From Dermabacteraceae bacterium TAE3-ERU5 (GTDB lineage: Bacteria > Actinomycetota > Actinomycetes > Actinomycetales > Dermabacteraceae): a stretch of 64,000 nt of DNA. The DNA lies in the NCBI GenBank assembly GCA_019218375.1, contig JAHUUK010000007.1, forward strand, positions 1-64,000. The letters run 5' to 3'. Position numbers and translations under genes: made by a program. The notes under the pieces were generated by a model, which worked only from the letters and a program-made list of their open reading frames with translations, did no database searches and was not told the DNA's origin. Shown here one piece after another: positions 3,551 through 55,503 of the stretch (positions are counted from its first letter, which is position 1; each line of letters begins with the position of its first letter).

Positions 3551-3556
3551 CCTTAC

Positions 3557-3562: not shown

Positions 3563-3679
3563 TGCCTGACGTGTGTTTTGTGGGAGGGGCTAACGGCCTT
3601 CATCTCTCAGTTCACATTCGCACGCCAGGCTGAGGCGTTTTTCCTGACACTTGTTTTCTTTGGTGTGAGAAACCCTTTG

Positions 3680-3685
3680 TACGAT
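3680..3685 (+). promoter_or_regulatory. -10 element of SURF1 mRNA, probably leaderless
   Basis: TACGAT followed by six bases and the ATG at 3692. A clear -35 is not visible. The hexamer is identical to the one of the divergent pta promoter. Confidence 0.5.
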
Positions 3686-3691
3686 GGGGGA

Positions 3692-4423: not shown

Positions 4424-4424
4424 C

Positions 4425-4832: not shown

Positions 4833-4844
4833 CGCTTTCCGGGT

Positions 4845-4850
4845 TAGGAT
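4845..4850 (+). promoter_or_regulatory. -10 element for guaA, leaderless start at GTG 4858
   Basis: TAGGAT lies seven bases before GTG 4858. The in-frame ATG at 4849 overlaps this hexamer, so if the promoter is real that ATG is not transcribed. Confidence 0.45.
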
Positions 4851-4857
4851 GGTCGGC

Positions 4858-15613: not shown

Positions 15614-15625
15614 TAGCCCACGGAG

Positions 15626-15658
15626 ATTTCCTCCCTGGGCCTGGCCCAGGGAGGAAAC
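15626..15658 (+). terminator. Perfect hairpin overlapping the next gene's ribosome binding site
   Basis: TTTCCTCCCTGGGCC pairs base for base with GGCCCAGGGAGGAAA, leaving a very short loop. The 3' arm contains GGGAGG, the likely Shine-Dalgarno of the TTG start at 15659. It could end transcription of the ATPase gene or hide the ribosome site of the next gene. Confidence 0.6.
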
Positions 15659-16141
15659 TTGATCGACTACACGCCGTACTGGTTCCCCGTAGACCTAGCC
15701 GGTCCGCTGCTGTGGGGCTGCTTGGCGCTCGCCGCGCTAGCTGTTGCGGGCGGGGTGGGGCTGCTGTGCGCGGGCTGCGATAGGAAAGATCGGACGGTGC
15801 GGGCGCTAGCGGTCTTGGCGGTGTTTTCCCTGGTCGGCGCCAGCGCTTTCTGGGGTCTGAAATGGCTGGCCGTAGACCATGCTCGCCAGGTGTTCGCCAC
15901 CTACAACGCGGTGCCGGATGATCCCGAGAGCACCCCGATCAAACCCGGCCCCTACGAGGGGCCATACATGCTCACCTACACCCACCCGGAGACGGGCAAG
16001 CAGACCCGGCTCTTTTGCGGAATCCGCATGGTCGCGCCGATGGACGGTGAAGGCAGCAAGCTGCGCGTCCCCTGCTGGCAGGGGGAAATGCACAACGGTA
16101 AGTCGGTTAAGCCAAAGGAGTTCGGGGAGAAGTTGCGTTAG
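15659..16141 (+). CDS. Small two-helix membrane protein of unknown function
   Basis: 160 aa, starting at TTG 15659 with GGGAGG five bases upstream inside a hairpin arm. Two membrane helices (about residues 15-38 and 50-66) are followed by a polar C-terminal domain of about 90 residues that carries two Cys (FCGIRM and VPCWQG), which could form a disulfide outside the membrane. Not recognised as a known family. GC content matches the upstream genes. It converges on the glycosyltransferase genes and overlaps the end of the first by four bases. Confidence 0.6.
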   Translation: MIDYTPYWFPVDLAGPLLWGCLALAALAVAGGVGLLCAGCDRKDRTVRALAVLAVFSLVGASAFWGLKWLAVDHARQVFATYNAVPDDPESTPIKPGPYEGPYMLTYTHPETGKQTRLFCGIRMVAPMDGEGSKLRVPCWQGEMHNGKSVKPKEFGEKLR

Positions 16142-17322
16142 TTAGTTTCTGGATATACTGTATTCGGAGAAATAGTTTTAGGCGAGGACATCAAATCCTC
16201 CCAGAAATCTACCACCGTATTGGTGGCGTATTCTGCCGCTAATTTCTTCCCCATATCTGACTTTTGTTGTCGAGCAGAGAAGTCCGAAATCGCCGTAGAG
16301 ATAAGTTCGGCTAGTCCAGAAGTTGTTTCGTCTGAGCAGACCCATCCTGCTTGTGATGCTATTTCGCATGTGGCCGGAGACGATGGTGTTGCAATTACGG
16401 GTACACCGCGAGAAGCGGACTCCAGGAGAACCATTGGTTGACCTTCTGTAATTGAAGGTAGAACGGTAAGGCCAGCTGCTTCGTAACACTTTAAAACATC
16501 GGTACTTGGGATATCTCCAGAGAAGAAAACTCGGTCGATAAGGCCCGCTTCTTTGGCGCGCTCTTTTATTTGGTTAAGCTGCTCTCCACCTCCCACATAG
16601 CGCAGAGTCCAGTCGCTGAAATTGTTTGAAATTCGCTCAAAGGCATCTAATAGCAGTTGTGGACGTTTCAGTCCTGTAATTCTTCCAACAAAGAGGATTT
16701 CTTTTCGTTCTGCAGTATATTCGCTTACCTGCTCCGGTAGTGGGATTGGATTATGGGAATAGAATGTTGGGACGTCGAACAGTGATGCAAAACTTTTTGC
16801 GTCGGCTTCGGAGAGCACCCCAAAGGCGTTCGATAGCTTCGCGACTTCTTTTAGGAGCTCAGGGGCGCCGCCGTGATTGTAGGCGTGGAAGCTGCTGTGG
16901 TACTGAGTAATTACCTTAGGACGGTCAGCTGCAGGTAGTGCAAGGATTTCTCTGAGCAGAATAAGCGCTTCTTCTGAACGTTCAACTAGCATTATGCAAG
17001 TTTTAGAGTCTAGCGCATTGACATACTTTTTTGTACGCAAGTTCCTATAAATATCCCACAATGGGGTTAGTAGCAATTTTAGTGCCAGCTTTAGTTTGAA
17101 GGGGCCCGGGAACTTCCTGGAAATTGGGTTGTGGGATGTGTAGCCTATGTGTTTATTTAGGGAGAAGTGAGGAGCTATTCCTTTGGGGGATACGTCCTGA
17201 GATGACAGGAAAGACACCTTGTAGCCGCGTGAGGCGAATTCTTTAGCAAAAGTATTCACTACCGTTGTTGTACCGCCGGTGGGGCCATGAACATTTTTGT
17301 AAAAAACTATGTGATTAATCAT
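16138..17322 (-). CDS. GT-B glycosyltransferase (family 4-like)
   Basis: 394 aa from ATG 17322. A GT-B fold with an N-terminal acceptor domain that begins MINHIVFYKNVHGPTGGTTT and a C-terminal nucleotide-sugar domain with EILFVGRITGLKRPQLLL and the EX7E-type segment SITEGQPMVLLESASRGVPV. It should transfer a sugar from a nucleotide donor to an unknown acceptor (teichoic acid, polysaccharide or glycoprotein). It is paralogous to the next gene: both carry a PGPFxxKLAxK..T..W.xYR block. The start overlaps the stop of the partner gene by 8 bp. Base composition is far more AT-rich than the flanking genes, a sign of acquisition. Confidence 0.82.
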   Translation of the reverse strand: MINHIVFYKNVHGPTGGTTTVVNTFAKEFASRGYKVSFLSSQDVSPKGIAPHFSLNKHIGYTSHNPISRKFPGPFKLKLALKLLLTPLWDIYRNLRTKKYVNALDSKTCIMLVERSEEALILLREILALPAADRPKVITQYHSSFHAYNHGGAPELLKEVAKLSNAFGVLSEADAKSFASLFDVPTFYSHNPIPLPEQVSEYTAERKEILFVGRITGLKRPQLLLDAFERISNNFSDWTLRYVGGGEQLNQIKERAKEAGLIDRVFFSGDIPSTDVLKCYEAAGLTVLPSITEGQPMVLLESASRGVPVIATPSSPATCEIASQAGWVCSDETTSGLAELISTAISDFSARQQKSDMGKKLAAEYATNTVVDFWEDLMSSPKTISPNTVYPETN

Positions 17323-18562
17323 TTTTCGGCACCTTATGAGGGATGGTATTGGGTGAGCGTGACGCAAACAGTGTTACCCAGCTATCACCAATCTTTTGTG
17401 ATGAAAATGCGGATGCTAGTTCCAGGCATTTCTTTGACAGCTCTTGTCTGTGCCCAATGTCAGATATCGCTTCGTCTAGTACGGATGCGAGTCCTTCAGG
17501 AGAGTCATCTTCACACAGGTAGCCAGCTTTTTCTGCGATCTTCCTGGCGCCTGAGCAAGAATTCGTGGTAACTCCGGGAACGCCTCGTGCGGCACATTCT
17601 GTTAGCGCCATGGGTAATGCTTCAAAACTTGATTGAAGCACACATAGTCCCGCTTTATCTATCTCTGGAATTACGTTAGATACATAGCCGTGGAAATTGA
17701 TTCTGTCTTCGCTGAGGAGTTTTGCGGCTAGGGCTTTCCATTTATCCTCGGCTGGCCCTGTGCCGTACAATTCCAGTGTCCACTCTGGGTGCTTCTGTGC
17801 TATTAAAGAGAAAGCGTGCAGAAGTAAATCGACCCGTTTTTCATCAGACATGCGGCCTAAAAATATAAGTTTTTTTCGGTATTTTAGGACGGGAATTTTG
17901 TCTAATACGTCATTTACGGGATTTGGTAGCACGCCGACGTGCGCATTAAATGCATCAGCAAAATCTTGTGCGTATTCTTCTGTTAGTGCTAGCAGGGCAT
18001 CTAAGTGGGGGAGAGTTGAAGCTATTTTAGACTCTGAGCCCCAGGCTTTCATCCCATCCATGGAACCATGGAACTGCATAAACACTCCGGGGCCCTTGTT
18101 TTTACCCCTTAAAGTACTAATATATTTTGATATAAACTGAGATATTCCAGCCTCTAAGAGGATGAAGTTGTCAGATTCATCAAATTTCCTGAGGTGGGCT
18201 AGTAAGCGCGCGTCTCTGTAGACTTTCCAGGGGATGGTAAGAGTGCGCTTAATTGCTAGCTTTACTCCAAAAGGGCCTGGATACAGTTGGGCTAACCTGT
18301 GTTCAGATGTAATATTTTGTAGCTTGTTAATTATGAAAAGGTTTTCAGGGGAACTGGGGACAACCATGTCTGCCCCTGAGGCTGGAGGGTTATGGGAAAT
18401 TACTTCTACCGTAAATCCCCTCGATTTAAATTCTTTGGCGAGCAGGCGCATAGCGCTATTTGTGCCACCAAGTGCACCGTAATCATTTACGCAAAAAATT
18501 ACACGTCTATTTTGCTTGCGGGGCTGCTTCAAGGTGTCTTTATCTCCTGAGTGTAAACTCAT
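17315..18562 (-). CDS. GT-B glycosyltransferase, paralogue of the downstream gene
   Basis: 415 aa. N-terminal domain with RVIFCVNDYGALGGTNSA, C-terminal donor domain with LIFLGRMSDEKRVDLLL and SSFEALPMALTECAARGVP. It resembles poly(glycerol phosphate) or capsule glycosyltransferases in general layout; no acceptor can be named. The first 18 residues are polar and may not be translated; a TTG ten codons in lies downstream of AGGAG and is an alternative start. It is transcribed together with the previous gene. It has the same AT-rich composition. Confidence 0.8.
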   Translation of the reverse strand: MSLHSGDKDTLKQPRKQNRRVIFCVNDYGALGGTNSAMRLLAKEFKSRGFTVEVISHNPPASGADMVVPSSPENLFIINKLQNITSEHRLAQLYPGPFGVKLAIKRTLTIPWKVYRDARLLAHLRKFDESDNFILLEAGISQFISKYISTLRGKNKGPGVFMQFHGSMDGMKAWGSESKIASTLPHLDALLALTEEYAQDFADAFNAHVGVLPNPVNDVLDKIPVLKYRKKLIFLGRMSDEKRVDLLLHAFSLIAQKHPEWTLELYGTGPAEDKWKALAAKLLSEDRINFHGYVSNVIPEIDKAGLCVLQSSFEALPMALTECAARGVPGVTTNSCSGARKIAEKAGYLCEDDSPEGLASVLDEAISDIGHRQELSKKCLELASAFSSQKIGDSWVTLFASRSPNTIPHKVPKND

Positions 18563-43065: not shown

Positions 43066-43722
43066 TTGTCTGAAGACAAGCTGAACGAGGTCGAAGGCGG
43101 CGTAAGCCGTCGTTCGATCGCTAAGGCCGCGGCCTGGGCCGTTCCCGCCGTTACCGTGATGGGTGCCGCCCCGAGCGCCGCCGTCAGCCCGGTCCCGAAC
43201 ACCATCCGCGGTATTAAGCCGACCCACATTGACGGGCGCCCCATCGGTTACCAGGCGACCGGCAAGCAGGGTGAGTTCAGCTTCCACCTGCCGAAGGAAG
43301 TAAACATCCCCCGCATGTGCTGGGAGGTCTCCATCGTTCCGGTCCCGAACAAGAAGGGACAGATCGATAAGAAGGAACGTCCCTTCCGCCTCGAGGACGT
43401 CGATGACAACGGCGGCAGCGCTAAGCAGCTGCACTGGACTCCTGAGAACGGTAAGAAGCTGGATCAGCTTGACTACAAGTACAACCCCTCCACCGGCGTG
43501 GAGACCATCAGCTTCTGCACCGAGCCTGTGGAGTCCGATGTGCGCAGTGGTACCCAGCGCATCACCTTCAAGATCTACACCGGTATCACCAACATCTTCG
43601 GCAACGGCCGCGCAGACAAGGTCATTGTCAAGGGCTGGGACAAGTCCGGCCAGGTAGTCGATTACGACTCCGTTGAGGCTTCTAACGCGCCTAACGACGA
43701 GAATTACGACGGCCGCGTCTGA
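43066..43722 (+). CDS. Tat-secreted protein of unknown function, paralogue A
   Basis: 218 aa from TTG 43066, preceded by AAGGAG with seven bases of spacing. A twin-arginine signal SRRSIAKAAAWAVPAVTVMG is followed by an AAPSAAVS region suited to cleavage. The mature part is rich in Lys, Asp and Asn and probably all-beta. A block FKIYTGITNIFGNGRADKVI is shared with the next gene (FKVYTGYTDIFNRRADKVVV). Both end DGRV. No known family is recognised. Two Cys (MCWEV and FCTEP) could pair outside the cell. It has its own terminator at 43742-43773. Confidence 0.72.
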   Translation: MSEDKLNEVEGGVSRRSIAKAAAWAVPAVTVMGAAPSAAVSPVPNTIRGIKPTHIDGRPIGYQATGKQGEFSFHLPKEVNIPRMCWEVSIVPVPNKKGQIDKKERPFRLEDVDDNGGSAKQLHWTPENGKKLDQLDYKYNPSTGVETISFCTEPVESDVRSGTQRITFKIYTGITNIFGNGRADKVIVKGWDKSGQVVDYDSVEASNAPNDENYDGRV

Positions 43723-43909: not shown

Positions 43910-44668
43910 ATGGATAGTGACAAGGTTGAGGGGCAGCCCCTGAGCCGTCGCGGACTCGCCAAGGCCGCCGCCTGGGGTGCTCCCGCAGTCGTGATGATGG
44001 GAGCCGCCCCCTGCGTGGGTGCGTCTACCGTCGATGTTCCCGAAAATCCCTTCGGCAAAGGCTGGATCTATGTTGACCAGCGCAATGTCGGCACCATTGC
44101 CGCTCTCGCGGAGGGCGACTTCCACTACCTGTTCCCGAGTAACGGTAAGAGCATTACCGTGCCGGAAATGGAGTGGACCGTTAAGGTAATCCCGGTACCT
44201 AACGACGAGGGCAAGCTAAACACCGCAAACCGTGAGGTCTACGTACAAGAGTACGTGACAAGCAATCTGGATAGCGCTGTGGCCTTTAACAAGACCACTC
44301 CCGTGAGCGGTTCCAACGGTAAGTTCATCCCCGGCAATATCAACGGTAAGAGGAACGCCGATGGTAGCTACACAGTCACCTTCACTACCCCGGAGGTAAC
44401 TGACTCCCGCGGAAACCAGGTGCGCAGTTACGGCTTCAAGGTTTACACGGGATATACCGATATCTTTAACCGTCGCGCCGACAAGGTCGTCGTAGAGGGC
44501 CGCCCCAAGAACGGGGTAAAGGGGCCCGACGGTAAACCGGTTTGCAAGCCGGGCACCCAGGAGCCGATGGACCTGCTGTGGGTTGATTACGACTCTGTCA
44601 GGGATGCCAGCCCCGACAAGCGTTTCGGTCAGCCCGGCTGGAGCTACGCTCAGGACGGCCGCGTCTGA
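43910..44668 (+). CDS. Tat-secreted protein of unknown function, paralogue B
   Basis: 252 aa. The signal LSRRGLAKAAAWGAPAVVMM is almost the same as in paralogue A, and the mature parts align along their length with a longer loop here (GVKGPDGKPVCKPGTQEP). Shared features are VxVIPVPNxxGxxN, the YTGxTxIF..RADKVxV core and the DGRV end. It is probably a duplicate of the previous gene that has since diverged. Function is unknown; a surface or cell-wall role is a guess. The ribosome site is weak (GAAAG). It converges on the carbamate kinase operon over a shared terminator. Confidence 0.72.
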   Translation: MDSDKVEGQPLSRRGLAKAAAWGAPAVVMMGAAPCVGASTVDVPENPFGKGWIYVDQRNVGTIAALAEGDFHYLFPSNGKSITVPEMEWTVKVIPVPNDEGKLNTANREVYVQEYVTSNLDSAVAFNKTTPVSGSNGKFIPGNINGKRNADGSYTVTFTTPEVTDSRGNQVRSYGFKVYTGYTDIFNRRADKVVVEGRPKNGVKGPDGKPVCKPGTQEPMDLLWVDYDSVRDASPDKRFGQPGWSYAQDGRV

Positions 44669-44696
44669 GTTAGTTCCCTGCCAAAAGGCATAAATG

Positions 44697-44733
44697 GAAG
44701 GGCCACCCCTAGCGAGGGGTGGCCCTTCTTTCT
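44697..44733. terminator. Bidirectional terminator between Tat protein B and arcC
   Basis: GAAGGGCCACCCCT pairs with AGGGGTGGCCCTTC around AGCG, followed by TTTCT. It closes both convergent units. Confidence 0.85.
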
Positions 44734-44749
44734 ATTTAGCTACGAACGA

Positions 44750-45685
44750 CTAGTTCAGCGTGATTCGCGTGCCCGTTTCGCCGCGCAGAGCCTGCGCCAG
44801 GCAATCGATGCTGGTAATCAGCGCCTCGCCGTTCGGGTTGTTCTCCACGAAGTTCAGCGCCGCCTCCATCTTCGGCAGCATCGAACCGGCGGGGAACTGG
44901 CCCTGCTCGATGTATTCCAGCGCCTCCGCGCGGGTCATGTGATCCACCCAGCGCTGGGTCGGCTTGCCGAAGTCCACGGCCACCTGCGGTACGCCCGTGA
45001 CCAGGAACAGCGAATCGGCCTTCAGCTCGTGCGCCAGCAGCGCCGAAGCCGCGTCCTTGTCGATCACGGCCTCCACCGTCTCCTCGCGGCCGTCCTTACG
45101 CACGGTCGGAATGCCGCCGCCGCCGCAAGCCAGCACGATGTGCCCGGCATCCATCAGGGTGCGCACGGAACGGAACTCGAGGATCTGCTGCGGCTTCGGG
45201 GAGGGCACCACCCAGCGGTAGCCACGACCCGAATCCTCGATCACGGTGCGGCCCTCGGCGCGCATCCGCTCCGCTTCTTCTTCCGACAGGAAGCGGCCGA
45301 CGGGCTTGGTCGGGTTCGCGAAAGCCGGGTCCTCGTGATCCACCAGGGTGTGGCTGATAACCGAGGTCACCTTGAAGAACTTGTTGCGCTTGAGGCAGAT
45401 GTTGCGCAGCGCGTAACGCAGCAGCGAACCGATCGAGCCTTCGCTCATCGCGCCGGTCGATGCCATCAGGATCTCCGAAATATCGGAATGCTTCTGGGCC
45501 AGATCCAGCATGCCCTCGTAGATCACGCCAACCTGCGGGCCGTTGCCGTAGGTGAGAACAACATCCATGCCCTCTTCGGCGAAGTCGATCACCGGCTCCA
45601 GCATTTCTTCCAGGGCGGAAGTGTCGTGCGGATTAACGGTGGGCAGGGCGTTACCGCCAACTGCGATAACCAGCGTCTTAGACAT
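44750..45685 (-). CDS. arcC: Carbamate kinase
   Basis: 311 aa, the normal length. It makes ATP from carbamoyl phosphate and ADP, releasing carbamate (ammonia and CO2). VIAVGGNAL at the start, TYGNGPQVG, the VISHTLVDHEDPAFANPTKP loop, VACGGGGIP-type LACGGGGIPTV and KDAASALLAHEL are all in place. ATG 45685 follows AAAGGAG at the right spacing; the frame upstream is read-through. It is the last gene of the carbamoyl operon, so its substrate should be supplied by the FdrA/DUF1116/DUF2877 system; no arginine deiminase genes are nearby. Confidence 0.94.
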   Translation of the reverse strand: MSKTLVIAVGGNALPTVNPHDTSALEEMLEPVIDFAEEGMDVVLTYGNGPQVGVIYEGMLDLAQKHSDISEILMASTGAMSEGSIGSLLRYALRNICLKRNKFFKVTSVISHTLVDHEDPAFANPTKPVGRFLSEEEAERMRAEGRTVIEDSGRGYRWVVPSPKPQQILEFRSVRTLMDAGHIVLACGGGGIPTVRKDGREETVEAVIDKDAASALLAHELKADSLFLVTGVPQVAVDFGKPTQRWVDHMTRAEALEYIEQGQFPAGSMLPKMEAALNFVENNPNGEALITSIDCLAQALRGETGTRITLN

Positions 45686-45718
45686 TGAAACTCCTTTGGA
45701 TATTAAGCGGTAATAATG

Positions 45719-45791: not shown

Positions 45792-47042
45792 TCACATCCC
45801 CAGCTCTTTCGCGTACTTCTCGGCGAATGCCTCGAGTGCTTTCTCGAAGCAGGCCAGCGGCGGGAACACGACGCCCGCCCCAACCTGGCCGACCCCCGGT
45901 TCGCGGTGCGCGATACCGGAGTTGATGTAGGGGCGAATACCCGTTTCGACCACGCTCACCATGTCCACACCCACCGGGATGCCCTGGAACCCGATGGTCG
46001 GGGCCTTGTAGGTCTGGGACTTGCCCTCGGTGATGGTGAACATGCTGCGTGTGATGTCGTAGGCCGCGTCGGAACCGTCCAGGCCCACGAACTGGGTGAC
46101 GGCGGGGGCGCAGGCCATGGCGACGCCGCCGAAACCGACGCATTCCACGATCGCGGAATCGCCGATGTCCGGGTTCGCGTCCTTCTCCGTGTAACCGGGG
46201 AAGTACAGGCCCTGCGGCATCTCCACCGGCGCCTCGAACCAGGTGTCACCGAGCGCCGCGATCTTGATGCCGAAGTTCGTGCCGTTACGGGACATGGCCG
46301 ACACCAGCGTGCAGTACTCGATGCCCTTGATCGGATCGATGCTCGCCTTCGCGGACGCCATCGCCAGGTTCAGGAAGAACTGGTCGTTGGTGTACAGGAA
46401 CGACGCGATTCGTTCGATCACGTCACCGTCGTGGCAGGTGCGCGCGATCGCGGGCATGATCTCCCGGAAGAACAGGGCCGACGCCGCGATGTTGCGCTGG
46501 TGCAGCTCGTCGCCCATCGCCAGGGCCTTCGCGATGATGACCCGCAGGTCGATCCCGCCCACCTGAGCGATGGCGCGCTTCACGACCGGCGCGAACTCGT
46601 CGGCCAACCAGCGCAGACGATCCAGTACCTCGGCGTCGTTAGCGCCGAAACGCATCACCTTGCCGATGCCCTCGTTAAAGGTCGAATAGGCGACGTTACC
46701 GAAAGCCTTGTTCTCCACCTTCACCAGGGGCATGGACGGCGAAACCATGCCGGTCATGGGGCCGACGATGTCCGCCGAATGGTTGTGCCGCAGCTCAACC
46801 CCGCCGGACTCTACCAGGGCGGCGGCGGCATCAAGATCGCTCGCCCAACCCTCGTAGACGCACACGCCGAGGATCGCGCCACGCAGCGGGCCGCACATGT
46901 CGGCCCAGGCCAGCGGCGGTCCCGCATGGTAGATGACGCGGTCCCCCGCCGGGAGGACGTCGCGTGCGTACACGACGTCCACCAGCGTAGGTTCCGCAGC
47001 GTTGATACGGGCAAGCGCCCGCTCGTTCGCCTCGCGAATCAT
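45792..47042 (-). CDS. DUF1116 protein, AllG-like subunit 1
   Basis: 416 aa. The family signature is seen in HAGPPLAWADMCGPLRGAI near residue 40, the GPMTGMVSPSMPLVKVENK block and AMGDELHQRN. As I recall, the E. coli homologue YlbE (AllG) is part of the oxamate carbamoyltransferase with FdrA (AllF) and YlbF (AllH). It starts five bases after the stop of the 59-aa FdrA C-terminal protein and is paralogous to the DUF1116 gene at 48837. Cytoplasmic. Confidence 0.85.
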   Translation of the reverse strand: MIREANERALARINAAEPTLVDVVYARDVLPAGDRVIYHAGPPLAWADMCGPLRGAILGVCVYEGWASDLDAAAALVESGGVELRHNHSADIVGPMTGMVSPSMPLVKVENKAFGNVAYSTFNEGIGKVMRFGANDAEVLDRLRWLADEFAPVVKRAIAQVGGIDLRVIIAKALAMGDELHQRNIAASALFFREIMPAIARTCHDGDVIERIASFLYTNDQFFLNLAMASAKASIDPIKGIEYCTLVSAMSRNGTNFGIKIAALGDTWFEAPVEMPQGLYFPGYTEKDANPDIGDSAIVECVGFGGVAMACAPAVTQFVGLDGSDAAYDITRSMFTITEGKSQTYKAPTIGFQGIPVGVDMVSVVETGIRPYINSGIAHREPGVGQVGAGVVFPPLACFEKALEAFAEKYAKELGM

Positions 47043-47044
47043 TT

Positions 47045-47224
47045 TCAGCCCAGCTCTTTCAGCCGCTCGATGATCTCGATCAGGCGCAGGTTGCCACCGG
47101 CCGGCGGACGCCAGTCGATGTGCACACCGGTTGCGCCCTGCATGTTCACGGCGTCGTTGAACACCTCGAGGCCGAGGTTAAGCACGGTCATGTTTTCCTG
47201 CTCAAATAGCGGAGTGGTTTCCAT
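47045..47224 (-). CDS. 59-aa protein equal to the C-terminal segment of FdrA
   Basis: ATG 47222-47224 to TGA 47045-47047, with AAAGG nine bases upstream. It contains NMTVLNLGLEVFNDAV, then a HIDWRPPAGGNLRLIEIIERL end. As I recall, E. coli FdrA (about 555 aa) finishes with a very similar stretch (an INIGL segment, then WSPVAGGN and a LLERL end). Here FdrA is about 516 aa and ends before that stretch. The gene lies between fdrA and DUF1116, in the place a fused tail would occupy. It is therefore probably a separately encoded subunit domain. Confidence 0.75.
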   Translation of the reverse strand: METTPLFEQENMTVLNLGLEVFNDAVNMQGATGVHIDWRPPAGGNLRLIEIIERLKELG

Positions 47225-47257: not shown

Positions 47258-48808
47258 TCACTTGACGACTGCGACGGCGGCGCGTGCGCAGTGCTCGTTC
47301 GTTTCGAATACGCGGATACCGGCCTCTTCCAGGATCTGCTCCTGGGCGCGGTAGTCCTGGTAGTCCTGGTAGGAACCGCAAATGTTGGCGAAGAACGCTA
47401 CCTCGCGGCCCACCTTCGCCAGTTCGGCGCGGGCCTCGCGGACCTCGTCGGCCAGGATCTTGCCGGCCTCATCGTGTGCGCCGTAGCCCGTCTCGATGTC
47501 GAGCACGATAACGGCGGTCTCCGGGTCGAGGGCCTCCTGCAGAAGACGCTCGCCGCGCAGCGACGGCTCGATCATCGGGTGCGGCTTGCCAACGGTGAAG
47601 GCGTCGTCGCCGAGGTCCAGCACGGTGTGGCCCTCGGAACGGGTGACGTCCTTCAGCGCGTAGTCGTAGTTCAGCGGTGCGTTCGAGAACGGCATGCCGA
47701 TCTCGTCGGCAATAATCAGCTGCGTCTCGTAGGAGAGCGTGCCGCCGCAGTACAGGCCGCGAATGTAGCGCTGGCCCTCGCTGAGGGCGGCGCGCGCCGC
47801 GGAAACGATTTCCTCGGTGTCCGCGCGGCCGGTGATCTGGCTGGCCTCGGCATCGCCCGCGGCCATATCCAGGCAGAGCTGCGCGGTGTCGGTCAGGGTG
47901 TGGCCGACCTTCGCTTCGGTGCCGCCGAGCAGGTTCGAATCGTCACCCAGCAGGCAAGCCACGACGGGCTTGCTGAGGGAATCGATCTTGCGGGCCAGCT
48001 TCTCCACCACGGCCGGGGCCGGAGGCTTGGAGACGATGGCGATGATGTCGGTCTGCGGATCCGCTTCGAGCATGTCGATCGCGTGCAGCATCATCTTGCC
48101 GCCGACGGCCTCCTTCAGGTCACGGCCACCGGTGCCGAGCGCCTGGCTGATGCCGCCGCCGAAGTTCGAAACCAGGGTCATGACTTCCTGCAGGCCGGTG
48201 CCGGACGCCGCCACGATGCCGACGTTGCCGCGCGAAACCTTGTTCGCGAAGCCCAGGCCGATGCCGTTTACGACGGCGGTGCCACAGTCGGGGCCCATCA
48301 TCAGCAGGCCCTTCTCGATGGCGAGGTCCTTCAGCTGGTTCTCGTTCTCGATGCTCATGTTGTCGGAGAACAGCAGCACGTTAACGCCGGCGTTGAGCAG
48401 GCGCTTCACCTCGATATGGGCCATGTTGCCGGGCAGGGAAACAACGGCCATCTGCGGCTCGGGGTATTCCTCCAGGGCCTGCGCGGTGGTGTCGAAAACG
48501 GTCTGCGCGCCGGACTTCGCGGCCTTCTGCGACTGCTTGGCTTCCAGGATCTCCATCGCGTGTGCGATAGCGGCATCCACGGTGGCTTCGTCGTCGGCTT
48601 TCACGGCGAAAACGAGGTCGTTCGGCGAAGCATCCTCGCCTTCCTGCGCGAGCAGACCCGAGTTGCGCATCAGGTCCTTGTTCATCTCGGAAGCCATCAT
48701 GACGGCGATGTTGTGCGAACCGCCGACCTCCGGCGCCACCTTGCTGGTGAGCAGCATCAGCGTGGCCGAGTCGTAGTACGAGTTCTTCTTGATTACGTTC
48801 TTGAGCAC
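47258..48808 (-). CDS. fdrA: FdrA-like (AllF-like) acyl-CoA-synthetase-fold protein
   Basis: 516 aa from GTG 48808 with AAGGAG upstream. The protein resembles the alpha and beta parts of succinyl-CoA synthetase. LLMMGPDCGTAVVNGIGLGF, the VGIVAASGTGLQEVM segment, ALGTGGRDLKEAVGG and GDDAFTVGKPHPMIEPSLR are FdrA features. It lacks the last 50-60 residues of the E. coli protein, which are encoded by the next small gene. Expected role: catalytic subunit of a carbamoyltransferase that releases carbamoyl phosphate from a carbamoylated acid such as carbamoyl-oxamate. Cytoplasmic. Confidence 0.88.
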   Translation of the reverse strand: MLKNVIKKNSYYDSATLMLLTSKVAPEVGGSHNIAVMMASEMNKDLMRNSGLLAQEGEDASPNDLVFAVKADDEATVDAAIAHAMEILEAKQSQKAAKSGAQTVFDTTAQALEEYPEPQMAVVSLPGNMAHIEVKRLLNAGVNVLLFSDNMSIENENQLKDLAIEKGLLMMGPDCGTAVVNGIGLGFANKVSRGNVGIVAASGTGLQEVMTLVSNFGGGISQALGTGGRDLKEAVGGKMMLHAIDMLEADPQTDIIAIVSKPPAPAVVEKLARKIDSLSKPVVACLLGDDSNLLGGTEAKVGHTLTDTAQLCLDMAAGDAEASQITGRADTEEIVSAARAALSEGQRYIRGLYCGGTLSYETQLIIADEIGMPFSNAPLNYDYALKDVTRSEGHTVLDLGDDAFTVGKPHPMIEPSLRGERLLQEALDPETAVIVLDIETGYGAHDEAGKILADEVREARAELAKVGREVAFFANICGSYQDYQDYRAQEQILEEAGIRVFETNEHCARAAVAVVK

Positions 48809-48836: not shown

Positions 48837-50072
48837 TCAGATGCCGAGTTCTTCGGCGAGGGCGATGAGGGCGTCCTCGAACGGCTTGGCCGGAATGGTG
48901 GACATGCCCGCGCCGACCATGCCGACACCCGCCTTGTTGGAGGCGATGGCGGTGTTCAGGGTCGGGGTGATACCGGTTTCGACCACGAGCGCGGCATCGA
49001 TAGCGGTCGGGGCACCCTGGAAGTCCAGAATCGGAATCTGGTACTTCGGGTTCTCGGTCAGGCACACCCGGTACATGTTCTGGGTGGTCTTCCAGGCCAC
49101 ATCAACGCTGGACGCGCCGACGAAGCGCACGATGGCGGGAGCGGCCAGCATGGCGCAGCCGCCCAGGCCACCGACCTCCATGATCGCGGAGTCGCCCAGG
49201 TCCGGGTTCGCGTCGGCCTCGGTGCGGCCGGGGAAGTACAGGCCCTCAACCATCGGGGCCGGAGCGGTGAACCAGCGTCCCGGCAGGCCCGAGATGCGCA
49301 CGCCCACCTCGACGCCGTTACGGGCGATGGCGGTCACCACGGAGGAACCGGGAACGCCATCGGCGGCGTCGGCCATCAGCTTCATGGCGGGCATGGCCAG
49401 GTTCAGGAAGAACTGGTCATTGCCGACGGACATGAAACGCATGATGTCGGCGGTGTGCTCGCCCGCGTGCTCCGCGATGCCGGTGGTGAGGGTCTTGATG
49501 ATGAGCGCGGTGCAGGCGAGGTTACGCATGTGCAGTTCGTCGCCCATCGCCAGGCCCTGGCCGATCATCGGGGCCAGATCCAGGCCGCCCATTTCGCGCA
49601 GCACCTTCTGGAAGATCGGCTGCGCGACCTCCTCGATCCAGTCCAGGCGCTTCAGGGTCTTTTCCCCGTACTCACCGAAGCGCAGGCCCACGCCCTGGCC
49701 CTCGGAGATGTTGCAGAACGCGCGCTGGCCCGTGTTGCGGTCCTCCACTACCCAAACCGGCATGGAGTAGGTGGTCAGGCCGGTCATGGGGCCGACGGCG
49801 CCGTAGGTGTGGCAGGGGGAGAACTCGATGCCGCCGTTCAGCGCCAGCTGTTCGGCCTCCTCCGGGGTTTCGGCGAGTCGTTCGTGCAGGGCCGCGCAGA
49901 TCACGGCGCCCTTCATCGGTTCGCACATGTCGGCGAACGCGATCGGCGGGCCGGCGTGCAGGAACAGGTTCTTCTTCAGTTCGGGAATGGCCTCGTGGGC
50001 GGGGACGATGTCCACCAGCACCGGGTCCGAGGCGAGCATCTTCTCGACTGCAATACGGTTTGCTTCTCTCAT
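48837..50072 (-). CDS. DUF1116 protein, AllG-like subunit 2
   Basis: 411 aa. It shares with the other DUF1116 protein the HAGPPIAFADMCEPMKGAV block, GPMTGLTTYSMPVWVVED, LAMGDELHMRNLA and the GLYFPGRTEADANPDLGDSA segment. The ATG lies close behind the Nramp-like stop with GGAGG upstream. E. coli has one such subunit; two in one operon suggest either a heteromeric enzyme or two specificities. Confidence 0.85.
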   Translation of the reverse strand: MREANRIAVEKMLASDPVLVDIVPAHEAIPELKKNLFLHAGPPIAFADMCEPMKGAVICAALHERLAETPEEAEQLALNGGIEFSPCHTYGAVGPMTGLTTYSMPVWVVEDRNTGQRAFCNISEGQGVGLRFGEYGEKTLKRLDWIEEVAQPIFQKVLREMGGLDLAPMIGQGLAMGDELHMRNLACTALIIKTLTTGIAEHAGEHTADIMRFMSVGNDQFFLNLAMPAMKLMADAADGVPGSSVVTAIARNGVEVGVRISGLPGRWFTAPAPMVEGLYFPGRTEADANPDLGDSAIMEVGGLGGCAMLAAPAIVRFVGASSVDVAWKTTQNMYRVCLTENPKYQIPILDFQGAPTAIDAALVVETGITPTLNTAIASNKAGVGMVGAGMSTIPAKPFEDALIALAEELGI

Positions 50073-50079
50073 TGCTTAC

Positions 50080-51330
50080 TTAGCCTCCAATCAGCTTGGA
50101 AATGACGTTGTAGAGTCCCCAGAAGCCGAGGATGAACGAGAGCAGCACGGCCAGGCCGCCCACCACGTTCTGCCAGGGCTTGTTGACGTACTCCTTCATG
50201 ACCTTCGAGTTGTTGGCCGCGATGATCAGCAGCGCGGCGATGAACGGCAGGATGAACCCGGAGGTGGCCTGCGCGAAGATGATGATCTGGATCGGCTTGG
50301 CGCCGGAGATCGCGAGGAACGTGCCGAACGCGACCACTACCAGGCCGAGTCCGCGCAGGTAGGGGTTGGCGATGCCGCCCTCGGTGTGGAACACCTTGGA
50401 AAGGATCGCGCGCATCGAGAACGGCACGGCGATGGCCGACGACAGGCCGGCGGCGAACAGGCCGAGGTCACCCACGATGCGAGCCCAGGAACCGAGCACC
50501 GGCTCGAGCGACTTGGTGAACACCAGCGGGCTGTTTACCTGGGTGCCGGTGCCGTGCAGCACCTTAGCGGCCACCACGATGATCGACATGGTGATCATGC
50601 CGCCGATGATGATGTTGAACAGGATGTCGAAACGAGCGTCCTTGACGGCGGTCTTGACGTCCTTATCCTGGCCCCACTTCTCGCCCGAGGTGATGGAGTG
50701 CAGGACCAGGTTGATACCGATCAGGGTGGTGCCCACCAGGGCCAGGGCGCTAATTACGCTGCCTTCCGGCATCGACGGAATGACCATGCCGCCCAGGATG
50801 CCCGGGATCGACGGCAGCACCGCCACCATGGTGACGACGAAGAGGATCGCCATTGCGCTCACGAAGAACTGCATGATGCGGCTCAGCGCGGTGTAGGAAG
50901 TCATGAACACGGTAGCGGCAGCGATCGCGGCGGTGATGACCGCAGCGGCCCAGATCGGCATCGAGGTGATGTCGGCCAGGCCAGCGCTAGCGCCGACGAT
51001 GTTACCGGCCTCGAACGCGAAGCAGATCGCGAGGGTGCCAGCCACGATGATGGTCTGCACGAAGCGCTTCCAGATGATGCTGGAGGGGAACATGTCAATC
51101 GCGGCATCGATGACGTTCTTGCCGCCGGCGATACCGACGCGCGAGGACATCTCCATCAGCACCACCAGGGCGATTACCGCAAGCAGCAGCACCCACAGCA
51201 GGGCGTAGCTGAACTCGGTGCCGACCTTGGTGGCGGTAATAACGGTGCCGGGGCCGATGAACGCGCTGGTAATAATGGCCGCGGGGCCCATCTTTTGGAA
51301 TCTGGCCTTGAGGCCGCTTTGTTGTTGCAT
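50080..51330 (-). CDS. Nramp-fold transporter without metal-site motifs
   Basis: 416 aa with about eleven helices. The first helix has FIGPGTVITATKVG where metal-transporting Nramps have DPGN, and the sixth helix region GTTLIGINLVLHS lacks the MPH methionine motif. Both metal-binding signatures are therefore absent, as in Nramp relatives found next to 5-oxoprolinase genes. Its place inside the carbamoyl operon suggests uptake of an organic acid or amide. ATG 51330 has AAAGGAG upstream. Confidence 0.8.
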   Translation of the reverse strand: MQQQSGLKARFQKMGPAAIITSAFIGPGTVITATKVGTEFSYALLWVLLLAVIALVVLMEMSSRVGIAGGKNVIDAAIDMFPSSIIWKRFVQTIIVAGTLAICFAFEAGNIVGASAGLADITSMPIWAAAVITAAIAAATVFMTSYTALSRIMQFFVSAMAILFVVTMVAVLPSIPGILGGMVIPSMPEGSVISALALVGTTLIGINLVLHSITSGEKWGQDKDVKTAVKDARFDILFNIIIGGMITMSIIVVAAKVLHGTGTQVNSPLVFTKSLEPVLGSWARIVGDLGLFAAGLSSAIAVPFSMRAILSKVFHTEGGIANPYLRGLGLVVVAFGTFLAISGAKPIQIIIFAQATSGFILPFIAALLIIAANNSKVMKEYVNKPWQNVVGGLAVLLSFILGFWGLYNVISKLIGG

Positions 51331-51356: not shown

Positions 51357-52202
51357 TTATTTCTGATTGAAACTTTTAGCTGCGAGCAGTACGCCGCGCG
51401 CCGTATCGGCCCCCGACGAATGCCCGAGGGACAGCAGCCCCGCGAGCGCGCCGGGTACGGGAGCCCCCGCATAGCCGCGCAGCGTGCCGCTGAGGTGGGA
51501 AGAAAAATGCCCCGCGCAGGCCAGGCGCAGATAGTTTGCAGAGACATCGGTGGTCCTGGTAAGGAGCGGCGTGAGCGCGGTGGCCAGGGACGCGAAAGCG
51601 GGCGCGGCGTATCGGCGGGTAAAGGCCAGTGCGCCCAGCACGGAATCGTCGCCGGAGGGGGTCAGGCCGAAGCCCAGCCCGATCACCTCGTGCAGCAGCG
51701 CCGACGTCTGGTGGGTAGGCACGTCCTCTCCGCGCAGCAGGGGAGTCAGGGCCTCACGCAGGCAGTGGGCGATGCGTTCGCTAACCTCGGCGTAGCTATC
51801 AGGCAGGGAGGGTTCCTGCGCCGCTATCGCAGCGGCGATCTCATCGCTGTAACCGGGGTGGGTGAAGGTGCCGCCCGTGACCAGCAGGGTGTCTACGCGC
51901 TGCGTATCGGCAGAGACGAGCAGCCCGAGCTGATCGCGCCGCAGCACGTCGGCATGGGAGGCGATATGTACGCTGTCACCGCTGTTGAGCAAGCCGGGCA
52001 GGTTCGCGGCGCGCCACTGCGTGAGCGGCAGGGCGATGGAGAAGGACGCCGGGTAGTGCGCGCCGGTTGCGGGGCCGACCCAGGCGAGCAGGTCGTCGGG
52101 CAGCTCCAGGTTGAACCCCGACGCGAACACGGAATGCACGCGCGCCTGTTCGGGAAGCTCCGGCAGCGGGCCGTTCAGGTGGGAAACGGGCAGGTAGATC
52201 AC
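51357..52202 (-). CDS. DUF2877 protein, AllH-like subunit
   Basis: 281 aa. The family segments GLGFGLTPSGDDSVLGAL near residue 175 and a GHSSGADTARGVLLA end are clear. As I recall, E. coli YlbF (AllH) is the third component of oxamate carbamoyltransferase. The start overlaps the LctP stop by four bases (ATGA), linking permease and enzyme production. Confidence 0.82.
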   Translation of the reverse strand: MIYLPVSHLNGPLPELPEQARVHSVFASGFNLELPDDLLAWVGPATGAHYPASFSIALPLTQWRAANLPGLLNSGDSVHIASHADVLRRDQLGLLVSADTQRVDTLLVTGGTFTHPGYSDEIAAAIAAQEPSLPDSYAEVSERIAHCLREALTPLLRGEDVPTHQTSALLHEVIGLGFGLTPSGDDSVLGALAFTRRYAAPAFASLATALTPLLTRTTDVSANYLRLACAGHFSSHLSGTLRGYAGAPVPGALAGLLSLGHSSGADTARGVLLAAKSFNQK

Positions 52203-53728
52203 GCGCCCACCCCGATCCAGACGCTAAGTGCCAGGCCAACCACGAGCGCCTGCGCCAGGCTGATGACCAGCAGCGGCCGCAGGATTTCGCCCTCGCGGCC
52301 CTGCACACCCGCGGTGGTGGCGCCGAGCAGAATAGTGGACGGGCCGATGACCGCGCCCGCCGCGCCGCCCGCCGTCTGCGCGGCGAGGATCAGCGGCGCG
52401 GGCGCCGCGAGCTGCGCCGCCACCTCGCTCTGGAACGCCGCCAGCAGAATGTTGGAGGACATATTCGAGGAGGTCACGAATGCGCCGAACGTGCCCAGGG
52501 CGGCGGTGAAAGGCAGGTAGGCGATACCGGCGGTGGCCGCCACGCCCTGCGCCAAAATCTCGATCTGCCCCGTATTGAACAGCAGGCGCGCCAGCACCAG
52601 CAGGGCGGCGATGCCCAGGCTGGTCGGTAGCAATTTGGTGAGCGCGGCGCGGCAGGCGCTCGCCGTTCCGGCGCGATCCACGCCGCCCTCGCGGCGCAGC
52701 AGAAGCAGCGCGAAAACCGCAGTCAGGGTCAGCACGGTGCCCGCGTGGTAGAACAGCGGCACCCCGAGCAGCCGCAGCCCGGAAAGGGAATCGTGCAGGC
52801 CGGGCAGGGTGAACAGCAGCAGGGAGGAAGCCGCCAGGAACAGGAACGGTGCGGCCGACGCGAGCACGTTTCCGGTAGCGGGAGTGGCGGGAGCGGCAGG
52901 GGGAGCGTCGGCCTGGGCGGGCGCGGCGAGCAGGCGCGATTCGCAGGACCACTCAGAGGTGTAAATGCCCAGCCGGAAAGCCCCCAGCACCAGCACGAAC
53001 GCGGCGGCGGTCGGCACGAACGCGGCAATGGTCGGGTTCACCTGGCCAACCGCTATCTGGCCGCCCGCCATTACGGCGGAAACCGCCAGCACGAACGGCA
53101 GCGCGTGGCGCACGGCCGGGCCGCGACCGTAAAGGAAGCACATGATGAGTGCGCCCGACAGGTTGATCAGCCACAGGAAGATACCCGCGTAGAGAGAGGT
53201 TGCGGCCACGTTCTGGACCCCGCTCAGATCCACCAGGGCGTCCCAGGCCAGGCCCAGGGTGCCGTAGGTGTTAGCCCAGGCGTGCCCCAGCAGGGTGAGC
53301 ATGACGGCGGCGACGGGGCGCACGCCGAGCGCGATCAGGAACGGCGCGCAAACCGCCACCGGGACGCCGAATCCGGTGATCGACTGCAGAAAACTGGAAA
53401 AAACCCAGCCGAACAGGAGCACCAGGATCATGCGGTCGCCGCTGAGAGAGGTGGCGGCGTCCTTCAAAACGGTGAAAGATTCGCCCTCGCGCATGAACTC
53501 GTACAGGAAGATGGCGGGCCAGACCGCGTAAAGGATCGACAGGGCGGCGGAAAGCCCACCGCCGACGCTGTCGGCCAGCACGGGCAGGGTGAGCGTGCCG
53601 AGCAGCGCGGCGGAGGCCAGTGCGGTAGCTAAACCGAGCGCGCCCGCGCGGGGTATGCGCACGCGGAAGAAAGCAATAGCGCTAAACAGCACCGCGACGG
53701 GTGCGATGCTAGCGAGCCATTGCCACAT
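52199..53728 (-). CDS. L-lactate-permease-family (LctP) transporter
   Basis: 509 aa from ATG 53728 with GGGGAAG upstream; the longer frame runs into the divergent pucR gene and is rejected. Twelve to fourteen helices; SITGFGVPVAVCAPFL and TLLGHAWANTYGTLGL are LctP hallmarks, and FGAFVTSSNMSSNILL lies near the end. The family moves lactate or glycolate with protons. Oxamate is a close structural analogue of lactate and pyruvate, so in this operon it may carry an oxamate-like substrate; that is inference from context. Confidence 0.82.
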   Translation of the reverse strand: MWQWLASIAPVAVLFSAIAFFRVRIPRAGALGLATALASAALLGTLTLPVLADSVGGGLSAALSILYAVWPAIFLYEFMREGESFTVLKDAATSLSGDRMILVLLFGWVFSSFLQSITGFGVPVAVCAPFLIALGVRPVAAVMLTLLGHAWANTYGTLGLAWDALVDLSGVQNVAATSLYAGIFLWLINLSGALIMCFLYGRGPAVRHALPFVLAVSAVMAGGQIAVGQVNPTIAAFVPTAAAFVLVLGAFRLGIYTSEWSCESRLLAAPAQADAPPAAPATPATGNVLASAAPFLFLAASSLLLFTLPGLHDSLSGLRLLGVPLFYHAGTVLTLTAVFALLLLRREGGVDRAGTASACRAALTKLLPTSLGIAALLVLARLLFNTGQIEILAQGVAATAGIAYLPFTAALGTFGAFVTSSNMSSNILLAAFQSEVAAQLAAPAPLILAAQTAGGAAGAVIGPSTILLGATTAGVQGREGEILRPLLVISLAQALVVGLALSVWIGVGA

Positions 53729-53843
53729 TTTCTTCCCCTGATCATTACCGACTAGTAACTGCGGCGGGGGTGCGGGAATGCCGCTTCTGCCGCCTCTGTG
53801 CCTATAGCCTAAGGCCGGATACTTAACGAAAAGGCCGTGAAAT

Positions 53844-53882
53844 AGATAGACTTTTCTCGCTATCTTTATCCACTTTAGATAA
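53844..53882 (+). promoter_or_regulatory. Inverted repeats in the pucR/permease promoter region
   Basis: AGATAG (53844-53849) faces CTATCT (53860-53865) across ten bases; next to it TTATC (53866-53870) faces GATAA (53878-53882). They lie just before the pucR ribosome site and between the divergent operons and are candidate PucR operators. Confidence 0.4.
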
Positions 53883-53892
53883 GGAGTTTGTT

Positions 53893-55503
53893 GTGTTCGC
53901 AGCGATGACGGTGCGCGAGATGCTGGACCTGCCCGCGCTCTCCGCGGCCAGGGTGATTTCGGGACAGGGCAACCTCGAAGCCAAGGTGCAGCAGCTAAAC
54001 GTGCTCGAAGCGCCCGACCTCGCCCCCTGGCTGGCACCCGGTACCGTCTTGCTGACCAGCTACTTCGCGCTTGCCAACTGTGACGACGAAGAGCTGGAAC
54101 AGTTCATTTCGCAGATGGTGGAGGCCAAGGTGTCGGCCATCGTCATCAAACTTGACCGGCTCGTGAGCGAGGTGCCCCCCGAGTTCCTGCAGCCCAGCAG
54201 GCGCTACGGCATGCCGGTTATCACCGTGGATAAAGACGTCCGCTACGAAACGATCATCATGGACACGCTGCTGCCGATGGTGAATCACAAGGCGGGGCTG
54301 CTCGATCGGCACTACCGCATGAACCTGGTGCTGGATCGCTGGCGGATAGGCAACCACTCTCTGGAAGAGACGCTGAGCTACTTCGCCGAACTGATCGGAT
54401 ACCAGCTCACCCTGGAAAACATTCCCAATCGCGGCCTGCTCACCACGCTAGAGGAGCCGCTGCAACAGCGCGTTATAGAGGTTAAGCGGCACGTCAGCGA
54501 AAACTTCGCCGGGTTCTCGTACGACGTGCAGCAGGTGGTGGAACGCGGCGGCGGTACGGAGGTCAGCACCAGGGTGGTGGCGCCGATTGAGCTGGGCACC
54601 TCCCCGCGCTGCGAACTGATCGTGCACGACGCCCCGCAGCAGAGCGACGAATTCCTGATCGTGCTGGAACACCTGGCCCGCCACCTGCACATCGAGCTGC
54701 TCAACCAGCGCAACATCGACAACCTGATGTACTTCAACCGGCACAACCTGGTAGACGAACTGCTCACCAACACGGAACTGACCCCGCGCAACCTGGCGGC
54801 GGTGACCCGCGCCCTCGGCCTCGGCGTGTCCCCCCAATACCAGGTGGTGCAGGTGACCCTGCTGCCGCCCCCGGACGATTCCGTGGCCGATCGCGCCGGG
54901 GTGGGCATGGGGGACACCTACCATCGGGACACGCTGCGCATCAGGCGGCACCTGAGCGAACACTTCCCGCACTCGGAATGTCACGTCACAACGCACCGCG
55001 TAGCCATGATCGTGAACCTGCCCCGCGACGGGCAGCCGGTGACGTCGGCCGAAGTGGCCGACTGCCTGCCGGGAGACATCGTGCCCTACGTGGCGGGAAT
55101 CAGCCGGGTCGGCACCGTCAAGGAACTACCCAAGCTGCGCGAACAGACCCAGCAGGTGAAAGACATCCAGAAAGTGCTGCGCCGCTACAGCGACCCGATG
55201 AGCTACGACGAACTAGGCATCTTCAAGCTGTTCCACAGCCAGGAACTGGTGGAAAACATCGAAGAGTTCATCCCCCAAAAGTTCGTGCTGCTGCACCGCG
55301 AACACCCCGTGCTGTTCGAAACGCTGGTGACCTATCTGGAACAGGGCAGGAACGCCCACCGCTGCGCGCAGGAACTGGTGGTGCACCCTAAGACCGTGCA
55401 GTACCGGCTGGGGCGCATCCAAGATCTGGGGCTGGCCGATCTGGAAAACGTGGACGAAACCCTGCAGCTCCTGTTCGCGGCCCGCGTGCTGCGCGGCCGC
55501 TAA
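53893..55503 (+). CDS. PucR-family transcriptional regulator
   Basis: 536 aa. The N-terminal PucR ligand domain (MTVREMLDLPALSAARVISG onward, residues about 5-125) is followed by a linker region and a C-terminal PucR-type HTH (RNAHRCAQELVVHPKTVQYRLGRIQDLGL). Family members sense purine catabolites or related small amides and control their use. GTG 53893 is preceded by AAGGAG. It diverges from the carbamoyl operon across 164 bases and is the likely specific regulator. Confidence 0.9.
   Translation: MFAAMTVREMLDLPALSAARVISGQGNLEAKVQQLNVLEAPDLAPWLAPGTVLLTSYFALANCDDEELEQFISQMVEAKVSAIVIKLDRLVSEVPPEFLQPSRRYGMPVITVDKDVRYETIIMDTLLPMVNHKAGLLDRHYRMNLVLDRWRIGNHSLEETLSYFAELIGYQLTLENIPNRGLLTTLEEPLQQRVIEVKRHVSENFAGFSYDVQQVVERGGGTEVSTRVVAPIELGTSPRCELIVHDAPQQSDEFLIVLEHLARHLHIELLNQRNIDNLMYFNRHNLVDELLTNTELTPRNLAAVTRALGLGVSPQYQVVQVTLLPPPDDSVADRAGVGMGDTYHRDTLRIRRHLSEHFPHSECHVTTHRVAMIVNLPRDGQPVTSAEVADCLPGDIVPYVAGISRVGTVKELPKLREQTQQVKDIQKVLRRYSDPMSYDELGIFKLFHSQELVENIEEFIPQKFVLLHREHPVLFETLVTYLEQGRNAHRCAQELVVHPKTVQYRLGRIQDLGLADLENVDETLQLLFAARVLRGR

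Follow-up and report, generated by a model that had tools for sequence, protein, structure and literature searches.

What does a carrier of the Nramp fold transport once its metal site has been lost and its gene stands among genes for carbamoyl chemistry? This question is raised by a gene at 50080–51330 (minus strand) of a 64,000-nucleotide stretch of a Dermabacteraceae genome, the whole of which is called the window here. An initial annotation of the gene had proposed a cargo other than manganese, perhaps an amide-containing acid.

A genuine Nramp-family carrier

The open reading frame is real and encodes 416 residues, of which residues 31–384 match PF01566 (Nramp) in a profile search (E 3.2e-68; 230.8 bits against a curated cut-off of 29.8). 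The dN/dS of the gene is approximately 0.10 against the homologue at locus L054 and 0.08 against that at L055 (dS 1.8 for the L055 pair), and purifying selection acts on it. An AlphaFold2 model computed from a 40-row alignment was confident (pLDDT 88.5, pTM 0.88), and its best solved fold matches were DraNramp structures (6d91: Z 48.5, rmsd 2.3, 392 residues aligned, 24% identity). Fold matches were also high to the NRMT structure 7qji (Z 43.0) and to 9a52, an integrative model of Bacillus subtilis YcsG that was present in fold searches and absent from sequence searches (Z 40.6), with carriers of other families at Z 29.8 and lower (AdiC, 29.3). The protein has the Nramp fold, as the initial annotation had it, and is a genuine LeuT-fold carrier of the Nramp family (PF01566).

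Routine annotation would, as also foreseen, name it a divalent-metal transporter: NCBIfam model NF037982, ‘Nramp family divalent metal transporter’, scores 81.7 bits against a cut-off of 50. The same model accepts seven of seven other GPGT proteins tried, and the name carried by this equivalog model looks over-applied. Against the NCBIfam MntH model, the window protein scores 149.9 bits, far under the cut-off of 430. A tblastn search of plasmids returned 77 records, all below 60% identity among the matches listed (30 of the 77).

The carrier gene lies in a transcarbamylase operon

The carbamoyl operon that had been proposed around the gene was found, with AllF, AllG, AllH and carbamate kinase genes all together in the window. 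The order is LctP, AllH, Nramp-like carrier, AllG1, AllF, a 59-aa ORF, AllG2 and carbamate kinase, all on the minus strand. The first gene (52199–53884; start codon chosen by us, the listed ORF extending to 54037) encodes an LctP-type carrier of the lactate/glycolate permease family (PF02652, E 4.9e-55; TIGR00795 191 bits, under the cut-off of 341). It is overlapped by four bases by the gene for the AllH (DUF2877) subunit at 51357–52202 (PF11392, E 6.6e-19). Beyond the carrier gene follow AllG1, an AllG (DUF1116) subunit placed by its tree in an Nramp-linked clade (48837–50072; PF06545, E 1.5e-81), and the FdrA-like AllF subunit (47258–48808; PF00549 and PF02629; NF004760 457.8 bits, over the cut-off of 433). 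The 59-aa ORF (47045–47224) resembles the C-terminal tail of Escherichia coli AllF (approximately residues 509–555), and the operon is completed by the AllG paralogue AllG2 (45792–47042; PF06545, E 1.1e-87) and a carbamate kinase of the ArcC/AllK type (44750–45688; NF009007 307.2 bits, over the cut-off of 266; TIGR00746 306.2 bits, under the cut-off of 358). A PucR-type (purine catabolism) regulator is encoded divergently at 53893–55503 on the plus strand (PF07905, PF13556). Compared to E. coli allFGHK, the operon has AllF, AllG, AllH and carbamate kinase in common, and differs in its two AllG genes, its detached AllF tail and its two carriers.

Gaps of −4, 26, 7 and 28 bases from LctP through AllH, the carrier and AllG to AllF suggest that the operon genes are co-transcribed. 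A promoter and terminator scan gave 2 promoter-like sites against 1.3 expected and 8 terminator-like sites against 6.9 expected. Between the carbamate kinase gene and a convergent gene at 43910–44668, positions 44696–44729 could form a 15-pair stem with a four-base loop, perhaps a shared terminator, the overall count of such matches being no higher than expected. Outside the operon, two similar adjoining genes at 43066–43722 and 43910–44668 (plus strand) have, by eye, a twin-arginine-like start (SRRxxAKAAAWxxPAV) and are perhaps secreted.

All five metal-site residues are replaced

Five co-evolved residues are described as the hallmark of Slc11 carriers, two of them in TM1 (Asp, Asn) and three in TM6 (Ala, Met, His) (PMC9606685). 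In our MAFFT alignment (A1), these correspond to G26, T29, T201, I204 and I206 of the window protein, and none of the five is retained in any of the four aligned members of its clade, which is delimited below. In DraNramp, we take the sites to be D56, N59, A227 and H232, with E134 as the TM3 Glu; M230 is named in the title of a structure entry. In TM1, GPGT (residues 26–29; 51244–51255, minus strand) replaces DPGN, as the initial annotation had read from the sequence; alignment A1 and column counts place GPGT in 4/4 aligned clade members and Asp and Asn in 3/3 MntH rows. In TM6, the alignments and column counts show T201-T-L-I-G-I-N207 (50710–50730, minus strand) in place of A-x-x-M-P-H-N, with T201, I/V204 and I/V206 in 4/4 aligned clade members. 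The MPH column is therefore occupied by I204-G205-I206 (50713–50721). The stretch NLVLHS (207–212), earlier taken for the replacement of MPH, is instead the conserved continuation after it, common to true MntH proteins (compare MPHNLFLHS of a solved MntH). More has been lost than was first claimed, including the TM6 Ala (A227, here T201) and the TM3 Glu of the proton path (E134), which is N110 in 4/4 clade members and Glu in 3/3 MntH rows. Relative to MntH/Slc11 as represented by DraNramp, the LeuT fold is kept, and the metal-site five together with the TM3 Glu are all replaced.

An alternative alignment that restores the metal ligands was looked for and ruled out: phmmer (with DraNramp and another solved MntH as partners), MAFFT and the profile match agree on one register at TM1 and TM6. 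The end points of the structural match, with model residue 9 on DraNramp residue 39, would likewise set residue 26 on D56 if the intervening stretch is gap-free. The Mg2+ carrier EleNRMT has the fold and the GTT of TM6 in common with the window protein; it keeps the TM1 Asp, its NDAGG aligning with IGPGT of L145, at a column where the window protein has Gly. With the metal ligands gone and the TM1 Asp of NRMT replaced by Gly, the window protein is by its site neither an Slc11 nor an NRMT carrier.

A rare clade of carriers beside AllF and AllG

A contig scan seeded on exact 8-residue peptides, the reach of which is limited to close relatives, found L054 (Dermabacteraceae bacterium TAE3-ERU27, 99%), L055 (an Actinomycetaceae metagenome-assembled genome, 80%), L056 (a Lachnospiraceae metagenome-assembled genome, 48%) and the distant, partial L057. 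Later searches added L126 in genome G1053 (56% to the window protein in A1) and L164 in G1759 (91% to L126), so that the known members come from Dermabacteraceae, one Actinomycetaceae metagenome-assembled genome and genomes of Lachnospiraceae type. In a 53-row maximum-likelihood tree, from which L012 and L033 (internal TAG), L023 (the L054 gene) and the partial L057 were left out, the window protein, L055, L056 and L126 are set apart from the other rows by a branch supported at 100/100; the placement of this clade among the other branches is poorly supported, with a possible long-branch join with L116. Relative to 28 PxpT-like rows, the clade has Met for Q59 (Gln in 28/28), Ser for A22 (Ala in 28/28) and Ser for N357 (Asn in 27/28), and at the TM6 break P205 is Gly or Ala and Y206 is Ile or Val. 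The clade is rare: besides the centre genome, it was found in 0/395, 1/57 (the L054 genome), 1/396, 0/397, 0/168 and 1/154 genomes at the E-value limit of each draw.

Neighbouring genes were called by tblastn. L054 and L055 have an operon order identical to that of the window. L126 and L164 read AllF-AllG, carbamate kinase, AllG, LctP, AllH, Nramp-like, AllG1, AllF and tail, and L056 reads AllG, Nramp-like, AllG1, AllF, tail and amidase, with no AllH, LctP or carbamate kinase match within its 21 kb. AllG1 and AllF lie directly 3′ of the carrier gene in all six loci, with LctP and AllH ahead of it in five of the six. Linkage to AllF and AllG was present in 5/5 clade loci, and then also in L164, which was found later; two phyla are represented. 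AllF, AllG or AllH genes accompany 0/39 other Nramp-like loci. Counted as AllF/AllG linkage in 4/4 clade lineages against 0/39 other loci (the window and L054 forming one lineage and L164 lying outside the count), the association has a Fisher p of 8e-6, an overstated value as the rows share descent. Among the 39 loci are L041, with an internal TAG in its carrier, as well as L128 and L134–L137, which are distant; left out were L049 for its DPGN, L053 as divergent, L126 as a clade member and L138 as a repeat of L056. L055 and L056 being metagenome-assembled and the window genome 96% complete, absences from these genomes are provisional.

From the side of AllG, 20 stretches from 18 other genomes of the class were hand-picked, mostly as weaker matches and thus non-randomly, out of 90 AllG places in genomes other than that of the window; none had an Nramp-like or LctP-like match at E≤1e-4, and the sampled actinobacterial AllG operons therefore work without this carrier. 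At L056, an amidase gene at 14250–15494 (plus strand; NF006169 409.8 bits, over the cut-off of 391) follows the Nramp-AllG-AllF genes and could act on an amide product. Two further ORFs there (15589–16569 and 16690–18384), without a family match, were dropped as antisense, lying opposite a 1294-aa ORF. Both L056 and L126 have a galactarate/altronate-dehydratase-type gene close to the operon. In the open-access literature that we searched, outside which most subscription papers fall, we found no description of the AllFG-linked clade, and no paper pairing oxalurate with Nramp, or Nramp with DUF1116 or DUF2877.

Other metal-free carriers of the family

Metal-free PF01566 carriers and a role in 5-oxoproline use are already known, ‘orphan’ outgroups with a diverged metal site having been described (PMC10606218; PMC9606685). 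A phylum-wide draw of 396 genomes held 20, besides the window’s own, with a match at E≤1e-30; 17 of these have GPG[TS] and three DPGN, and the TM6 break of most of the 17 reads [VI]VPYN. Among the 39 other Nramp-like loci, 28 lie near PxpA/PxpB/PxpC-like, DUF1445 (D-glutamate cyclase)-like or hydantoinase/oxoprolinase A/B-like genes and are taken as PxpT/YcsG type, an assignment made from loci with pxp genes; 11 have neither gene set, some of them on short contigs. Pxp, DUF1445 and Hyu genes were found in 0/5 clade loci.

The window carrier and the PxpT/YcsG type are alike in fold and family and in having an amide-bond catabolic enzyme as operon partner, and most related loci also share the GPGT of TM1 and the GTT that precedes the break in TM6. 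They differ in that partner, PxpABC/HyuAB for the one and an AllFG-type enzyme for the other, and in forming separate clades; the window protein is 28–38% identical to PxpT-type rows. Pro-Tyr stands at the TM6 break in 31 of the 33 rows outside both the clade and MntH, and VPYN of the PxpT/YcsG type becomes IGIN, IGVN, VAIN or VGIN in the clade, in addition to the TM2 (Q59 to Met) and TM10 (N357 to Ser) changes.

Two other types were seen among the relatives. L028–L033, from the window’s own family, are Nramp-like proteins with GAGD in TM1 and GGVGGTITLAAYGYW at TM6. L024–L026 (L050–L052) are carriers that combine GPGT with a TM6 VPYNV and a TM3 GGDTTG; oxoprolinase-type genes were not found in 18 kb at L050–L052, and an isocitrate dehydrogenase gene follows in L050.

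The transcarbamylase set and the source of its substrate

In E. coli, AllF-AllG-AllH is reported to be the oxamic transcarbamylase, which uses phosphate to cleave oxalurate into oxamate and carbamoyl phosphate, the latter then being acted on by carbamate kinase; the activity saturates at 10 mM Mg2+, and cells given 20 mM allantoin made 17.7 mM oxamate (PMC11326118). Identities of the AllG proteins to E. coli AllG are 46–48%, window AllG2 being 48% identical to it and 42% to AllG1. Window AllF shares 33% identity with E. coli AllF and 41% with YahF, a protein with no function known to us. In FastTree trees of 17 AllF and 25 AllG sequences, the Nramp-linked AllF and AllG1 fall into clades that exclude E. 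coli AllF and AllG; judged from these trees, they are paralogues rather than orthologues of the E. coli oxamic transcarbamylase subunits. AllG2 adjoins the E. coli AllG branch, weakly placed in the unrooted tree. Each clade locus has at least two different AllG proteins, and L126 and L164 hold an E. coli-like AllF-AllG set (61% for the AllG of L126) in addition to the Nramp-linked set. Beside the carbamate kinase gene of L126, an AllF-AllG fusion ORF of 1001 aa spans 15328–18333 (minus strand), with separate Nramp-linked AllF and AllG genes also present; the gene order at 2693–5656 (plus strand) of L164 is as in this fusion region. The 59-aa ORF, which matched no Pfam family at E below 0.2, resembles the last 47 or so residues of E. 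coli AllF. Such tail similarity continues past the AllF stop in the window, L054, L055, L056, L126 and L164, and the AllF tail looks to be a separate small gene in the clade loci.

E. coli makes oxalurate from allantoin by steps including AllB and AllD. Among the window, L054 and L055 genomes, none of the three had an AllD match at E≤1e-10 or an allantoinase over the curated cut-off (best scores 208, 207 and 232 bits against 358, the model giving below-cut-off matches in most control genomes too), and the substrate of the transcarbamylase therefore probably comes from outside these cells. The argument fails for L056, as an allantoinase over the cut-off and an AllD match of 54% are present in that genome, and is not firm for G1053, with a 33% AllD match; by these matches it would hold for the actinobacterial members only. 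Nitrifiers that have allFGHK without upstream purine genes have been proposed as users of oxalurate made by others (PMC12625717).

A model for ureido acid import

Taken together, our best explanation, to which we give a probability of roughly 0.6, is that the carrier is a LeuT-fold secondary importer, the metal site of which has been rebuilt to bind a carboxylic acid with a carbamoyl (ureido) group. An N-carbamoyl acid is the cargo that the enzymes of the operon would need: the presumably co-transcribed AllF/AllG/AllH-type transcarbamylase would split the imported ureido acid with phosphate, yielding carbamoyl phosphate and the amide of the acid, and carbamate kinase would turn the carbamoyl phosphate into ATP and carbamate, hence ammonia and CO2. 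Were the cargo oxalurate, the product would be oxamate. The amide-containing acid of the initial annotation agrees with this model indirectly, by way of the AllF and AllG neighbours and of the relative PxpT, which is needed for growth on 5-oxoproline.

In APC amino-acid carriers, the carboxylate of the substrate is bound by backbone amides of a GxG loop where TM1 is broken. The G-x-G-T loop of GPGT could act likewise, holding a carboxylate through backbone amides and Thr29, and the change from DPGN would then turn a metal cage into a carboxylate clamp. The structural match to AdiC, of model residues 11–410 on chain residues 10–415, would set residues 26–28 on AdiC 25–27 if gap-free between. 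The change of VPY to IGI in TM6 may reshape the pocket, and T201 and T202, N207, and E/Q107 and N110 of TM3 may face the ureido end of the cargo. Residue 107 is Glu in the window protein and L055 and Gln in L056 and L126, which leaves room for more than one coupling ion. The LctP-type carrier might export the product acid, oxamate being similar to pyruvate and to lactate, or else bring a second acid into the cell; in L056, which is without LctP, the amidase could consume such an amide, a complementary pattern seen at one locus. We infer the direction of transport, the cargo, the coupling ion, the residue roles and the LctP role alike.

The identity of the cargo is the largest uncertainty of this model. 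Oxalurate is the leading single candidate, at well under even odds, and a different ureido acid is about as likely. Paralogous AllFGH proteins may serve another N-carbamoyl acid, or a cyclic hydantoin-, allantoin- or parabanate-like precursor, a sub-case of the ureido acid model whose probability overlaps with it. Oxalurate may be wrong because the linked AllF and AllG1 stand apart from the E. coli proteins and L126 and L164 hold both sets; the multiple AllG proteins per locus and the amidase added in L056 point the same way. Against this, divergence by itself does not prove that the substrate has changed, both sets may combine into a single mixed enzyme for oxalurate, and window AllG2 adjoins, weakly, the E. 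coli branch.

The reports of manganese transport by relatives are the main evidence against the claim that the window protein is not a manganese transporter, evidence that would bear on it by relation. Overexpression of ycsG in B. subtilis raised cellular Mn, leading to the name mntG in 2023, and the same report notes that earlier ycsG evidence for 5-oxoproline could be polar and describes MumT as a member of a similar operon (PMC10448178); MumT of Acinetobacter baumannii is reported to help Mn accumulation (PMC5050338). In Corynebacterium glutamicum, deletion of pxpT blocks growth on 5-oxoproline and plasmid-borne pxpT restores it, with metal transport, in the words of its authors, not excluded (PMC13274462). 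A carrier that still imports Mn2+ or Mg2+ through other ligands could supply a Mg-dependent transcarbamylase, as the E. coli enzyme is, and carbamate kinase, and no other PF01566 protein was found in the window genome. We consider a metal role unlikely because all five ligands are lost, including the TM1 Asp that even EleNRMT keeps, because the regulator is of the PucR type and because AllF and AllG stay beside the clade carrier. ZnuA-family (Zn/Mn ABC) binding-protein matches lie elsewhere in the window genome at four places, corresponding to approximately three genes as two are parts of one frame, and Zn/Mn uptake thus need not depend on the carrier. The claim that the protein is not a manganese transporter stands by inference from the loss of 5/5 residues in 4/4 members; the reports that weigh against it concern YcsG and MumT, not this clade.

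Similarly improbable is a reversal of roles, in which import falls to the LctP-type carrier while the Nramp-type carrier serves as an exporter of oxamate or a different amide product, or as an exchanger of that product for substrate. The presence of two carriers in the operon and the oxamate yield of E. coli, a product needing disposal, would suit such an arrangement, but L056 has the Nramp-type gene with no LctP match in its 21-kb locus, and PxpT is thought to act in uptake (PMC13274462). That the protein is an ordinary PxpT, importing 5-oxoproline and placed in this operon by chance, is very improbable despite the GPGT, GTT and NLxLH stretches in common, given the 100/100 clade separation, the VPY, Q59 and N357 changes and the want of Pxp, DUF1445 and Hyu genes in the five clade loci.

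Implications

PF01566 proteins without a metal site are ‘orphans’ with no agreed function, and YcsG is disputed between Mn and 5-oxoproline; the transcarbamylase-tied clade provides an independent, testable case for the Nramp fold carrying small amide-bearing acids, and a candidate protein for the import of oxalurate or of some other ureido acid. We put at even odds the fuller proposal that it is an undescribed Nramp branch in which the metal cage became a carboxylate site, giving a dedicated ureido-acid importer that supplies a transcarbamylase for energy and nitrogen. Should the cargo be something other than oxalurate, the linked AllF-AllG-AllH set would represent a new carbamoyltransferase. 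If the proposal is true, bacteria that have no allantoin pathway would feed on oxalurate-like compounds that others release, with ATP obtained by way of carbamoyl phosphate.
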